In this document: piece by piece, positions 27,399-56,177 of the stretch
How positions within the stretch are numbered: the stretch's first letter is position 1
How the letters are laid out: each line of letters starts with the position of its first letter
DNA from: Algoriella xinjiangensis
Lineage (GTDB): Bacteria > Bacteroidota > Bacteroidia > Flavobacteriales > Weeksellaceae
Assembly: GCF_900115015.1 (NCBI RefSeq)
Contig: NZ_FOUZ01000003.1
Span: 186,001 to 250,000, forward strand
Length of the DNA: 64,000 nt
Reading direction: 5' to 3'
The notes under the pieces: generated by a model
Seen by the model: only the letters and a program-made list of their open reading frames with translations
Database searches by the model: none
Told to the model about the DNA's origin: nothing
Made by a program: the position numbers and the translations under genes

Positions 27399-27903
27399 GT
27401 CATTCTGAATTCATTTCAGAATCACATGTTGTTTTATGATGATGAGATGTTGAAACGAGTTCAACATGACGAGGTTTTATATTAAATTCAGTAGTCATCC
27501 TGAATTCATTTCAGAATCACATGTTGCTTTATGATGATGAGATGTTGAAACGAGTTCAACATGACGAGATTTTATATTAAATCCAATAGTCATCCTGAAT
27601 TTATTTCAGAATCACATGTTATTTTATGATGATGAGATGTTGAAGCGAGTTCAACATGACAAGATTTTATATTAAATTCAGTAGTCATTCTGAACTTATT
27701 TCAGAATCACATGTTGCTTTATGATGATGAGATGTTGAAACGAGTTCAACATGACAATATTTTATATTAAATTCAGTAGTCATCCTGAATTTATTTCAGG
27801 ATCACATGTTGCTTTATGATGATGAGATGTTGAAACAAGTTCAACATGACAAGATTTTATATTAAATCAAGTAGTCATCCTGAATTCATTTCAGGATCAC
27901 ATC
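27399..27903. repeat. left array of the 95-bp palindromic repeat (5 full units and a partial)
   Basis: Units start at 27399, 27494, 27589, 27684, 27779 and 27874, a spacing of exactly 95 bases each time; the last is cut off after 30 bases. A unit holds palindrome 1 (YCTGAA/TTCAGR with a 5-base loop), a linker with ATGATGATGAG, palindrome 2 (ATGTTGAA/TTCAACAT with a 5-base loop), then about 23 bases of AT-rich spacer. The two ends are inverted (GTCAT and ATGAC), so a unit is a 72-base element plus spacer. There is no gene in the 591-base gap between pirin and the GIY-YIG gene apart from this array. Confidence 0.97.
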
Positions 27904-27913
27904 AAGAAGTCAG

Positions 27914-28198
27914 TCATTCAAAAATATTTATATCTTTTAAAGTTGGATTAAATTGCTTAATCAAATTAATTTTCCATTCACGTTTCCAATTTTTCAATTG
28001 TTTTTCTCTTGCTATGGCTTCATGAATAGAAGAAAATTCTTCGAAATAGATTAATGAATGTACATTATATTTTTTAGTAAAAATACTTCCGTTATTTTCT
28101 TTATGCTCGATAATCCTTTTCGAAAGATTATTTGTAACACCAATATAAAATACGGTCCTATACTTATTTGTTAAGATGTAGACATAGTATAAATTCAT
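27914..28198 (-). CDS. GIY-YIG nuclease family protein inside the repeat array
   Basis: This 94-residue single-domain protein has the GIY-YIG pattern: YVYILTN (5-11) and FYIGVTNNL (17-25), a conserved Arg (R28) in the KRIIEHK segment, and the conserved Glu (E65) in AIAREKQLKNWKREWK. All key residues are present, so it may be an active nuclease. It has no extra DNA-binding domain and no signal peptide. Its stop codon lies 11 bases past the left array and its start about 120 bases from the right array, so the same repeat family frames it on both sides. The function of such small GIY-YIG proteins is not well defined. Confidence 0.9.
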   Translation of the reverse strand: MNLYYVYILTNKYRTVFYIGVTNNLSKRIIEHKENNGSIFTKKYNVHSLIYFEEFSSIHEAIAREKQLKNWKREWKINLIKQFNPTLKDINIFE

Positions 28199-28258
28199 AT
28201 TGATAGCTTTTATAATGAAGAGCTTGTTTTAGGAAATATATTGGTTTTTTATGATGAG

Positions 28259-28279
28259 AAGCTGAACTAAATTCAGCTT
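28259..28279. repeat. degenerate hairpin of the repeat family
   Basis: AAGCTGAA and TTCAGCTT pair around a 5-base loop, followed by GACAAGATTT as in the array units. It is a diverged copy of palindrome 2 that matches the version used at 54.5-55.1 kb rather than the neighbouring 95-bp units. The 28199-28319 stretch holds nothing else that I recognise. Confidence 0.75.
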
Positions 28280-28319
28280 GACAAGATTTGAGTAAAATTC
28301 AGTTTGATAAATATCGTAC

Positions 28320-28539
28320 GTCATTCTGAACTTGTTTCAGAATCACATGTTGTTTTATGATGATGAGATGTTAAAACGAGTTCAACATGACGAGGTTTTG
28401 TATTAAATCCAGTAGTCATCCTGAATTCATTTCAGGATCACATGTTGTTTTGTTATGATGAGATGTTGAAACGAGTTCAACATGACAAGATTTTATATTA
28501 AATTCAGTAGTCATCCTGAATTCATTTCAGAATCACATT
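28320..28539. repeat. right array of the 95-bp palindromic repeat (2 full units and a partial)
   Basis: Units begin at 28320, 28415 and 28510, again exactly 95 bases apart; the third stops after 30 bases. Phase and sequence match the left array, but the distance from the last left unit is 446 bases, not a multiple of 95. The array ends 20 bases before the SDR gene stop. Confidence 0.97.
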
Positions 28540-28558: not shown

Positions 28559-29344
28559 TTAAGTTACCTTTTGTTTACGCATCATTTTAGAGAATAATCG
28601 AGGAAAAAAACGTTTGATATAAACACCATAAATTTCTTTTCCGCCAATATAAACTTCTTCTTTTTTAGACGAAATTGCGTTATACATTTTCTCAGCGAAA
28701 ACATCTACATGCATTCCTTTTACTTGCGCATCGTCCATTGTTCCTTGGTTTTTACCATTACCAACTAATGCATTTATAGAAACATTGGTATTGATAAAAC
28801 CTGGACAAACGATGGTTACAGAAATATTTTTGTCCCAAACTTCAGATCTTAACGAATCGAAATAACCATGCAAAGCATGTTTTGCAGCTGAATAAGAAGA
28901 ACGGAATTTTGTACCGAATTTTCCGACAAGACTTGTTACGGTTACAATTTGACCGCCATTATTTGCAATCATTTTAGGAAGAATTGATTTTGAGAGAACC
29001 ACAGTTCCCCAAAAATCAATTCTCATAATACGTTGTTCGGTTTCTAGATTAGTTTCTAAAGCTAAACTGCGTTGAGAAATTCCACCATTATTGATGAGAA
29101 TATCTATTTTACCAAATAGTTCCCAAGCTTCATTTGCTTTGTTGTTTAAAGAGTCTAAATCTTCTAAATCCAAAGGTAAAATTTTAATATTCTCTGAAAA
29201 AACACATTGTTCTTTCACTTTTTGTAAAGCGATTTCATTTCGAGAAGAAATGATGACATTGTATTTTTCCTTAGAAAATTTGTAAGCCAAAGCTTCTCCA
29301 ATTCCCGAAGAAGCTCCCGTAATCCAAACAACTTTATTTTGCAT
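28559..29344 (-). CDS. short-chain dehydrogenase/reductase
   Basis: This 261-residue classical SDR has the cofactor motif GASSGIG (10-16), the NNGG variant of the NNAG motif (85-88), and a catalytic Ser (S138) with Y151 and K155 in YSAAK. Arg 35 after the second strand suggests NADP(H) use. The C-terminal part (KRFFPRLFSKMMRKQKV) is basic and hydrophobic, so it may associate with the membrane. The substrate is unknown. Its start lies 13 bases from the hutU stop, so it may be read through from hutU. Confidence 0.92.
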   Translation of the reverse strand: MQNKVVWITGASSGIGEALAYKFSKEKYNVIISSRNEIALQKVKEQCVFSENIKILPLDLEDLDSLNNKANEAWELFGKIDILINNGGISQRSLALETNLETEQRIMRIDFWGTVVLSKSILPKMIANNGGQIVTVTSLVGKFGTKFRSSYSAAKHALHGYFDSLRSEVWDKNISVTIVCPGFINTNVSINALVGNGKNQGTMDDAQVKGMHVDVFAEKMYNAISSKKEEVYIGGKEIYGVYIKRFFPRLFSKMMRKQKVT

Positions 29345-54373: not shown

Positions 54374-54530
54374 GTCTATTGTTTGTAATTTAATTTACCA
54401 AATATAAGATTTTCAGATTAGATTAAAAATCTAAACTTTCACTAAAATGTTCACTTTTTGAACGTTCGCTTCGTTCGGGCTTTTCATTGTAATCTTTTGA
54501 ACTAATTTTAGCACTTTATTTTATCCTTCC

Positions 54531-55075
54531 GTCATTCTGAACTCGTTTCAGAATCACATCTTGTTTATAAAGTTTGATGAGAAGCTAACTAAATTCAGCT
54601 TGACAATAAGTTTTAAATATTAGTTGTCATTCCGAGTTTGTCGAGGAATCTATATTTTTAAACTCTACTAAAAACCGTCATTCTAAACTCGTTTCAGAAT
54701 CACATCTTGTTTATAAAGTTTTGTTGACAAGCTGTACTAAATTCAGCTTTACAATAAGAATTAGTTGTTATTCCGAGTTTGTCGAGGAATCTATATTTTT
54801 AAACTTTACTAAAACCGTCATTCTGAACTCGTTTCAGAATCACATATTATTTATAAAATTTTGATGAGAAGCTGAATTAAATTCAGCTTTAGAATAAGTA
54901 TTAGTTGTCATTCCGAGTTTATCGAGGAATCTTTTTTAAATTTTACTAAAATCATCATTCTAAACTAGTTTCAGAATCACATCTTGTTTATAAATTTTTG
55001 ATGACAAGCTAAACTAAATTTAGCTTTACATTAAATATTAGTTGTCATTCCAAGATTATCGAGGAATCTATTTCT
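54531..55075. repeat. second palindromic repeat array, four units of 137-146 bp
   Basis: Units begin at 54531, 54677, 54817 and 54954. Each unit has three palindromes: TTCTGAA/TTCAGAA as in the 95-bp family, AAGCTGAA/TTCAGCTT, and ATTCC...GGAAT within GTCATTCCGAGTTTGTCGAGG. Units are less alike than in the 27-28 kb arrays, so this is an older array. It fills most of the 742-base gap between the divergent glyA and anmK genes; the rest (54374-54530 and 55076-55115) holds only the two promoter regions. Confidence 0.95.
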
Positions 55076-55115
55076 TAAACTAAAGAAATCTCAAATTATC
55101 AATTAAATTTACAAC

Positions 55116-56177
55116 ATGAAAAATTCTACTTTTTGCATCGGATTAATGTCAGGAACATCTTTGGACGGATTAGATATTTGTTACGTTCATTTTGATGACG
55201 CACAATCATTCGAGATTTTAGAAGCTGAAACAATCGATTATCAACCAGCTTTAAAAAATAAATTGCAAAATGCGTACGAATTTTCTGCAATGGATTTATG
55301 CGAATTTGATATCAATTTTGGTTATTATCTTGGCGAGCAAGTCAACTTATTTATGAAGAAGTATAAAATTAACCAAGTTGATTTTGTTGCTTCTCATGGG
55401 CAAACAATTTTCCATCAGCCACAAAACAATTTTACATTGCAAATTGGTAATGGCGCTGCGATTGCGGCAAAATGTAATCAAAAAGTAATTTGCGATTTCC
55501 GAACGCAAGATGTTGTTTTGGGCGGTCAAGGCGCGCCTTTGGTTCCGATTGGTGACGAATTGTTGTTTAATCAATATGACGCATGTTTAAATTTAGGAGG
55601 TTTTTCAAATATTTCGATGAATAGAAATGGAAAACGAATTGCATTTGATATTTGTCCGATTAATATTGTGCTGAATCATTACGCAAAACAACTTGGTTTT
55701 GATTATGATAAAAATGGAGAATTGGCGACTAAAGGTTCGGTTAATTTAGATTTAGTCAATCAACTAAATGAACTTCAATATTATAAAGATTATTTTCCAA
55801 AATCGTTAGGTTTTGAATGGGTAGAGAATCAGTTCTTAACAATTGTTGATAACTACAAAATTTCTATCGAAGATAAACTACGAAGCTGTATTGCTCATTT
55901 TGTATTTCAAATCAATACGATTGTTCAAAAATACGATATCAACAACATGTTAATAACTGGTGGTGGAGTTCGAAATATATTCTTTATGAATTGTTTGCAA
56001 GAGAATTCGTCTGTTGAAATCATAATTCCGACAGATAATTTAATCGATTTTAAAGAAGCTTTAATTTTTGCTTTTTTAGGTTTTCGTCGTGCAAATAATC
56101 AAATTAATTGTTTGGCTTCGGTAACTGGCGCTATTTCTGATCATAGTTCTGGAATTATTTACGAACCATTTTCTTAA
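55116..56177 (+). CDS. anmK: anhydro-N-acetylmuramic acid kinase
   Basis: AnmK phosphorylates and opens 1,6-anhydro-MurNAc in cell-wall recycling. The 353 residues are normal for the Bacteroidota form. The family motif GLMSGTSLDGLD (9-20) is at the N-terminus; ASHGQTIFHQP, GDEL and LNLGGFSNIS are also visible, as is the C-terminal ITGGGVRNIFFM. It follows the repeat array directly, and nhaA starts 111 bases later. Confidence 0.96.
   Translation: MKNSTFCIGLMSGTSLDGLDICYVHFDDAQSFEILEAETIDYQPALKNKLQNAYEFSAMDLCEFDINFGYYLGEQVNLFMKKYKINQVDFVASHGQTIFHQPQNNFTLQIGNGAAIAAKCNQKVICDFRTQDVVLGGQGAPLVPIGDELLFNQYDACLNLGGFSNISMNRNGKRIAFDICPINIVLNHYAKQLGFDYDKNGELATKGSVNLDLVNQLNELQYYKDYFPKSLGFEWVENQFLTIVDNYKISIEDKLRSCIAHFVFQINTIVQKYDINNMLITGGGVRNIFFMNCLQENSSVEIIIPTDNLIDFKEALIFAFLGFRRANNQINCLASVTGAISDHSSGIIYEPFS

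Follow-up and report, generated by a model that had tools for sequence, protein, structure and literature searches.

In the 64,000-nucleotide stretch of Algoriella xinjiangensis DNA analysed here (the window), a short GIY-YIG gene lies between two arrays of palindromic repeats (Table 1). Both arrays have a period of 95 according to Tandem Repeats Finder, with 5.3 copies at 27399-27902 on the left (93% matches) and 2.3 copies at 28320-28538 on the right (89% matches), and the spacing is 95 throughout and ungapped, as a first-pass annotation of this DNA had claimed for the distance from start to start. That annotation also had both arrays close with the same 30-base partial unit; 2 of the 30 bases differ and the two ends are near-identical only. 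The palindromic element that it described is real, and what it overlooked is that the 72-bp unit consists of two REP hairpins in inverted orientation. Each 95-bp unit is made up of one such inverted pair of CGTC-type REP hairpins and a linker, and pairwise identity among the seven full 72-bp elements is 89-97%. One strand of the array unit reads GTCATYCTGAA...TTTCAGRATC and the other GTCATGTTGAA...TTTCAACATC.

Table 1. Repeat features of the window and the GIY-YIG gene (positions are those of the window)
Feature	Positions	Strand	Basis or remark
Inverted REP pair (72 bp), left array unit 1	27399..27470	.	repeat finding and REP comparison
Inverted REP pair, left array unit 2	27494..27565	.	repeat finding and REP comparison
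Inverted REP pair, left array unit 3	27589..27660	.	repeat finding and REP comparison
Inverted REP pair, left array unit 4	27684..27755	.	repeat finding and REP comparison
Inverted REP pair, left array unit 5	27779..27850	.	repeat finding and REP comparison
REP type a, gene's 3' side, 11 bases past the stop codon	27874..27902	+	one end of the proposed unit
Proposed unit with the gene (409 bp), in the order REP a, gene, inverted REP b; tails inward	27874..28282	.	
Predicted GIY-YIG nuclease gene; product of 94 aa with one domain and two C-terminal helices (REKQLKNWKREWK segment)	27914..28198	-	PF01541
REP type b, GTCAAGCTGAATTTAGTTCAGCTTC, gene's 5' side, 55 bases before the start codon	28254..28282	-	other end of the proposed unit
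Inverted REP pair, right array unit 1; second REP with one stem mismatch	28320..28391	.	
Inverted REP pair, right array unit 2	28415..28486	.	repeat finding and REP comparison
Single REP a closing the right array	28510..28538	+	
Second array: copies of REPs a and b in alternation with another palindrome, GTCATTCCGAG..CGAGGAATC	54529..55081	.	

Most REPs of the window fold into a GTC tag, an 8-bp stem, a 5-base loop and a tail. This stem and loop are seen in REP b (z -5.20), in the inverted partner and in one copy of REP a, and another REP a copy has a mismatch that brings the stem down to 5 bp. The tail is unpaired and reads CACAT or CTCAT in the window, and CCA in some relatives. In REP a and its array partner the stem starts with A, T with complementary partners, REP b starts with AA, and most copies read AGTC. 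When up to 2 mismatches are allowed, a 29-base REP pattern occurs 48 times in the genome of 3.27 Mb and its reversed control 0 times, so the occurrence of the REPs is not due to chance. The GIY-YIG gene is absent at the second array of the window (54529-55081), whose other palindrome is GTCATTCCGAGTTTGTCGAGGAATC and which lies just upstream of an ORF starting near 55116.

REP b at 28254-28282 also escaped the first-pass annotation; with it, the gene has REPs on either side that are inverted to each other. Elsewhere in the genome, REPs a and b form gene-less pairs of 66-102 bp at several sites, and single copies occur too. A typical pair has REP a, ACAT, about 15-20 bases, TGATGA or ATGA, and REP b, and the unit with the gene shares this order and has similar ends, namely REP a followed by ACAT and, on the other side, TTATGATGA followed by REP b; TTATGATGA, the inner flank of REP b by the gene, resembles the inner flank of the gene-less pairs. 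Two of these pairs (L018 and L025) differ at their inner ends, and at L016 REP a is paired with another palindrome. In Formosa (L051), inspection by eye places the gene between a GTCATGCTGAA REP and its inverted partner, with gene-less pairs on both sides.

The 94-residue product matches the Pfam family PF01541 (GIY-YIG) with E=1.3e-16 and 61.1 bits, against a cut-off of 22.6. An alignment of 79 sequences has 10 invariant columns, Y18, G20, R28, E53, E65 and N84 among them, in agreement with the earlier description of a complete gene with its key residues. The catalytic residues are presumably among these conserved Y, G, R, E and N positions. An AlphaFold2 model (mean pLDDT 93) has 1zg2 (UPF0213) as its best PDB fold match (E=1.5e-4, 28% identity in the fold alignment), with Slx1 structures following at E ~0.02, and a profile search also matches 1zg2 (E=2.6e-8). 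Sequence and fold together predict a single-domain, UPF0213/Slx1-like nuclease. The titles of the Slx1 PDB entries name branched and 5'-flap DNA, and by analogy with this action of Slx1 on branched DNA, hairpins or cruciforms would be fitting substrates for the GIY-YIG protein. A search of NCBIfam gave nothing over its cut-offs. A role in defence was considered and set aside, as PADLOC gave partial domain matches only, the best with E=3e-4 over residues 4-36. Mobilisation by a Y1 (RAYT) transposase is likewise unlikely in this genome because it has 0 matches to PF01797 at E≤0.001; such a match is present in 6 of 14 genus genomes.

Repeats beside homologous genes

A scan of a species-level genome collection returned 306 matches, the best 80 of which constitute the homologous loci analysed here. 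Going by record titles, the source of the phylum labels, they come from Bacteroidota, Pseudomonadota, Campylobacterota, Bacillota, Patescibacteria-type bins and others. Since metagenome bins are frequent among them, no weight is placed on isolated cross-phylum cases. Near-copies with common 60-mers are found among them (L046/L047, L048/L049 and L056/L061). Strict REPs adjoin 56 of the 80 homologues at a distance of up to 300 bp, compared with 18 of 328 control genes, which were taken from these loci with a simple longest-ORF rule (p=8e-34); the odds of adjoining a strict REP are ~40-fold above those of the other genes there. Within 400 bp, strict REPs are again found at 56 of the 80 homologues, on both sides in 41, and a lenient finder gives 73 of 80 homologues versus 42 of the 328 control genes. 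The density of strict REPs is 3.21 per kb near the gene versus 0.449 per kb in distant intergenic DNA, and the shuffled loci held 1 strict match in all. The finding extends to a motif-free measure, in which an exact repeat of at least 14 nt was common to both 250-bp flanks at 71 of 105 loci (of 106, one was not scored) versus 5 of 412 control genes, or at 70 of 103 without the duplicates L157 (= L052) and L158 (= L058). In a later set of 29 loci from phylum genomes, having no gene 60-mer in common with the first 80, a strict REP is present at 27, on both sides in 20. Nearly all of the 24 loci of the first set without a strict REP show other GTCA-tagged palindromes, as judged by eye without a count. 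The first-pass annotation had likened the locus to a REP with a dedicated enzyme, and had named homologues mostly without nearby repeats as evidence that would count against this; the homologues mostly do adjoin repeats, and the likeness is supported.

The 80 loci hold 161 strict REPs no more than 400 bp from the gene; 140 of these have C or T in front of GTC, the GTC itself having been required by the finder. In 133 elements near the gene, the four stem pairs that the search left free are paired in 130, 129, 133 and 132, where independent sides would give 75, 42, 86 and 78%; the copies are related, so this covariation is supportive of selection on the hairpin and not a formal test. REPs within 150 bp of the gene have median distances of 36 bases upstream and 31.5 bases downstream. 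The two flanking REPs are inverted to each other in 47 of the 63 loci that have both (p=1e-4), made up of 33 of 45 in the first 80 loci and 14 of 18 in the later 29. In the first set the nearest upstream REP has plus orientation in 48 loci and minus orientation in 5 (none within 150 bp in 27), and the nearest downstream REP is minus in 40 and plus in 16 (none within 150 bp in 24). The corresponding counts in the later set are 12 plus, 11 minus and 6 none upstream, and 10 minus, 11 plus and 8 none downstream. The tails-inward orientation that is evident in the first 80 loci is therefore not repeated in the later 29 and was rejected as a universal feature, and the inverted arrangement as such is the only orientation feature that holds in both sets. 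By eye, a leader with GTAAGG...CTTAC-like complementary segments lies within 150 bp upstream of the gene at L192, L203, L205, L207, L210 and L211, mostly where the nearest REPs point the other way; it could be a conserved leader structure.

Inspection by eye of the flanks of 12 Empedobacter homologues shows that the palindromes differ between most paralogues of one genome, and that most of them, not all, are GTCA-tagged. In 12 of the 80 proteins, K or R replaces the second W of LKNWKREWK, and homologues of this signature can have GTCATTTCGAC-type REPs. Strict REPs occur at 0 of these 12 loci and the GTCAT-NNN-GA[CG] type at 9, the figures for the remaining 68 loci being 56 and 5, respectively. 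Coevolution of signature and REP class is strong as a count, but on the tree the link comes down to three changes and does not reach significance, so that it is a lead and was rejected as a conclusion.

Of 10 pairs of genes tried, one lacked dS; in all 9 for which both values are defined dN is the lower, at ratios of about 0.03 to 0.33 that are rough since some dS values are saturated. An in-frame stop is present in 2 of the 80 copies (L062 6001-6279 and L076 6001-6261), both adjoined by a REP, and these two copies are probably decaying. As a separate observation by eye, the gene seems to lie beside bioD-like or trp-operon-like genes in different genera (L048, L049 and L071; L051, L053 and L054), which may reflect shared old insertions or preferred sites.

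Distribution across genomes and change of position

At the level of the phylum, 395 genomes were compared; the gene (E<=1e-24) is present in 76 of them, and REPs of the consensus class, in one copy or more, in 97. At least three REP copies are found in 44 of the 76 genomes with the gene versus 30 of the 319 without it; with 32 genomes having the gene only and 289 neither, the odds ratio is 13 (p=1e-18). At a threshold of at least 10 copies, 36 genomes have both, 40 the gene only, 12 the REP only and 307 neither (odds ratio 23), and the mean number of REP copies is 17.9 with the gene versus 2.35 without it. The reversed control pattern has a single match in 2 of these 395 genomes, and in 2 of the 246 genomes of the window's family. 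Support from within families is moderate, the association being present inside family f24 (p=0.013) and not in f2 (p=0.68), and the co-occurrence thus has a phylogenetic component. In the window's family, at least three REPs are present in 5 of 6 genomes with a close homologue (E<=1e-28) versus 18 of 240 without one; the sixth (G066) has 0 pattern matches and a REP 105 bp upstream of the gene, whose loop falls outside the pattern.

The link between gene and repeat across genomes is accordingly strong but not strict, and REPs persist without the gene. Repeats without the gene, which the first-pass annotation had held to be evidence against its proposal, are in part what is found: 30 of the 74 phylum genomes with at least three REPs have no homologue at E≤1e-24, and 18 of 23 such genomes in the window's family have no close homologue (E<=1e-28). 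A one-to-one dependence of the repeat on the gene was rejected on these grounds; the phylum figure weakens any claim of strict dependence and fits non-autonomous repeats that outlive their partner. One 2.3-Mb genome (G567; f28, g104) has 439 matches to the REP pattern and no homologue at E<=1e-24.

Comparison of related genomes indicates that the gene changes position. A homologue (E≤1e-6) is present in 8 of 14 genus genomes, gene-family copies number up to 6 per genome, and in Empedobacter close homologues lie at two places where relatives do not have the gene. The gap after lon has the gene and two REPs, both on the gene's 5' side, in G004 and G008, neither gene nor REP in G011, and another ORF in G013. 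The empty gap of G011 implies that gene and REPs came or went together. At the window's own locus, pirin was used to define the syntenic site because the neighbouring short-chain dehydrogenase gene (28559-29344, between the array and urocanase) is found in 0 of 13 other genus genomes (E<=1e-60). In the 12 genomes compared, arrays and gene are present in the pirin-urocanase gap only in the window genome; according to the finder, one intact REP remains in the gap in G005 and G006 and one degenerate REP in G007, with none in the rest, where remnants are visible by eye in G002, G008 and G009. In three genomes the finder also gave matches farther upstream, inside urocanase or close to it, which do not start with GTCA. 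No target-site duplication was recognised. The short-chain dehydrogenase gene may have arrived with the repeat cluster.

A candidate enzyme for CGTC-type REPs

Collectively these results make it probable that the GIY-YIG gene and the CGTC-type REPs form one system resembling REPIN-RAYT with an unrelated enzyme, in which the gene is a strong candidate for the enzyme partner of the repeats. Observations that run counter to this include the tails-inward orientation not being repeated in the later loci, both REPs at lon lying on the gene's 5' side, fewer than three REP copies in 32 of the 76 genomes with the gene, the genomes that have REPs and no homologue, the lack of association in f2, the signature link that is not significant on the tree, and the absence of a recognised target-site duplication. 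The chances are about even that the protein is more specifically an enzyme dedicated to mobilising CGTC-type REPs in several bacterial phyla. Taken together, and with the same even balance, this would amount to a new class of miniature mobile DNA, relying on a structure-specific GIY-YIG nuclease and host repair and employing no transposase, recombinase or reverse transcriptase.

Any action of the nuclease on the repeat, including the cutting or spreading of REPs, is inferred. The proposed gene-carrying unit comprises REP a, the gene and an inverted REP b, and the 66-102 bp pairs are its gene-less versions with like ends. The hairpin that a REP extrudes, in single-stranded DNA or as a cruciform, would be recognised by the protein, perhaps in part through its C-terminal helices, and nicked beside the GTC tag. 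The REP unit could then be copied by host repair or replication to a new or REP-containing site, and the same host processes could expand the arrays. GIY-YIG chemistry is water-mediated and has no covalent intermediate; joining would therefore fall to host repair, as in homing.

A different origin for the same arrangement, unlikely yet deserving consideration, is selfish homing, whereby a GIY-YIG homing endonuclease has its target, hairpin or spacer, in REP pairs that were already present. Its gene would enter between the two REPs through cutting and repair, and the REPs, dispersed by another agent, would serve as landing sites. GIY-YIG homing enzymes of the free-standing kind are known, the gene does sit in the spacer of a REP pair, REPs occur without it, and the gene-free pirin-urocanase gap of relatives retains one intact REP in two of them and a degenerate one in a third. 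The latter finding is also compatible with the alternative raised in the first-pass annotation, that the gene inserted into, or was captured by, an existing array. Landing sites that predate the gene are, however, at odds with the lon gap of G011, from which gene and REP are both absent, and pure landing sites alone do not predict the higher number of REP copies in genomes with the gene (17.9 vs 2.35).

We give very little weight to two explanations in which the REPs are not mobilised by the nuclease. If REPs merely gather in permissive intergenic regions where small dispensable genes survive, the nuclease being unrelated to them, the few control genes adjoined by REPs (18/328) and the partly phylogenetic co-occurrence, not significant in f2, would be accounted for, but not the ~40-fold odds over other genes of the same loci, the ends common to the gene-carrying unit and the gene-less pairs, the different palindromes beside paralogues, or a dN below dS. 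Equally improbable is a housekeeping role, in which an Slx1-like nuclease resolves REP hairpins or cruciforms and so protects the host, the neighbouring REPs being regulatory elements or terminators. The fold matches, to UPF0213 (1zg2) and then to Slx1 with its branched and 5'-flap DNA, would suit this role, as would the closeness of REPs to the gene ends (medians of 36 and 31.5 bases), whereas the patchy presence of the gene (8/14 genus genomes at E≤1e-6, 76/395 phylum genomes at E≤1e-24), its changing position, its up to 6 copies per genome and the stops in 2 of 80 copies are more like a mobile element.

If the one-system reading is true, bacterial repeat families would be driven by GIY-YIG nucleases as well as by HUH enzymes, and many relatives of the gene (306 stretches in one scan) would gain a likely function; proof of mobilisation would bring the system closer to a new class. 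With a short single-domain protein and a 29-base hairpin, the question is directly testable by simple biochemistry.

A close parallel in organisation is the REPIN-RAYT system, in which REPs with a GTAG tag are associated with a Y1/HUH transposase, the transposase gene is flanked by inverted REPs, and gene-less pairs are scattered in the genome. The present arrangement likewise has a partner gene flanked by inverted REPs together with scattered gene-less pairs, but the tag is GTCA rather than GTAG, and the enzyme is a GIY-YIG protein in a genome with no Y1 transposase match. In being a nuclease gene that changes place it resembles the GIY-YIG homing endonucleases, from which it differs in that no intron is seen, the protein has no further domain and the flanking repeats also occur without the gene. 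The protein itself is like UPF0213/YhbQ/YazA and Slx1 in having a single GIY-YIG domain and a fold and profile match to 1zg2, and unlike 1zg2 in its conserved REKQLKNWKREWK segment and the 28% identity between the two. YhbQ and YazA belong to the Slx1 family, according to a passage of PMC7017083.

Among the matches listed in a literature search of titles and abstract starts, covering chiefly open-access journal papers, none links GIY-YIG genes to REPs or names an enzyme that spreads CGTC REPs, and a term search of the main text of RepRanger 2025 (PMC12306157), a survey of REPs, gave no mention of GIY. The repeats themselves correspond to the CGTC-tagged REP superfamily defined by Di Nocera et al. 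2013 (PMC3733652), as it is described in passages of that paper. They share with it a (C/T)GTC tag, an 8-bp stem, a 5-base loop, an unpaired tail, inverted dimers and Bacteroidetes hosts, and the stem and loop in the window fit the superfamily's description of a stem of 8-9 bp and a loop of 4-5 bases. That description also has a stem starting with A, T with complementary partners, which REP a and its array partner show and REP b does not, and a tail that is mostly CCA, where the window has CACAT or CTCAT and some relatives CCA. By the same account CGTC REPs occur in five phyla, Rickettsiae and Wolbachia being among their hosts, and no enzyme that spreads them is known; it states that they 'apparently lack a dedicated transposase' and are 'not associated to transposase genes' (PMC3733652). 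Unlike the CGTC REPs as reported there, those described here are repeatedly adjoined by a GIY-YIG gene, and what would be new is a REP-plus-enzyme system with an unrelated class of enzyme.
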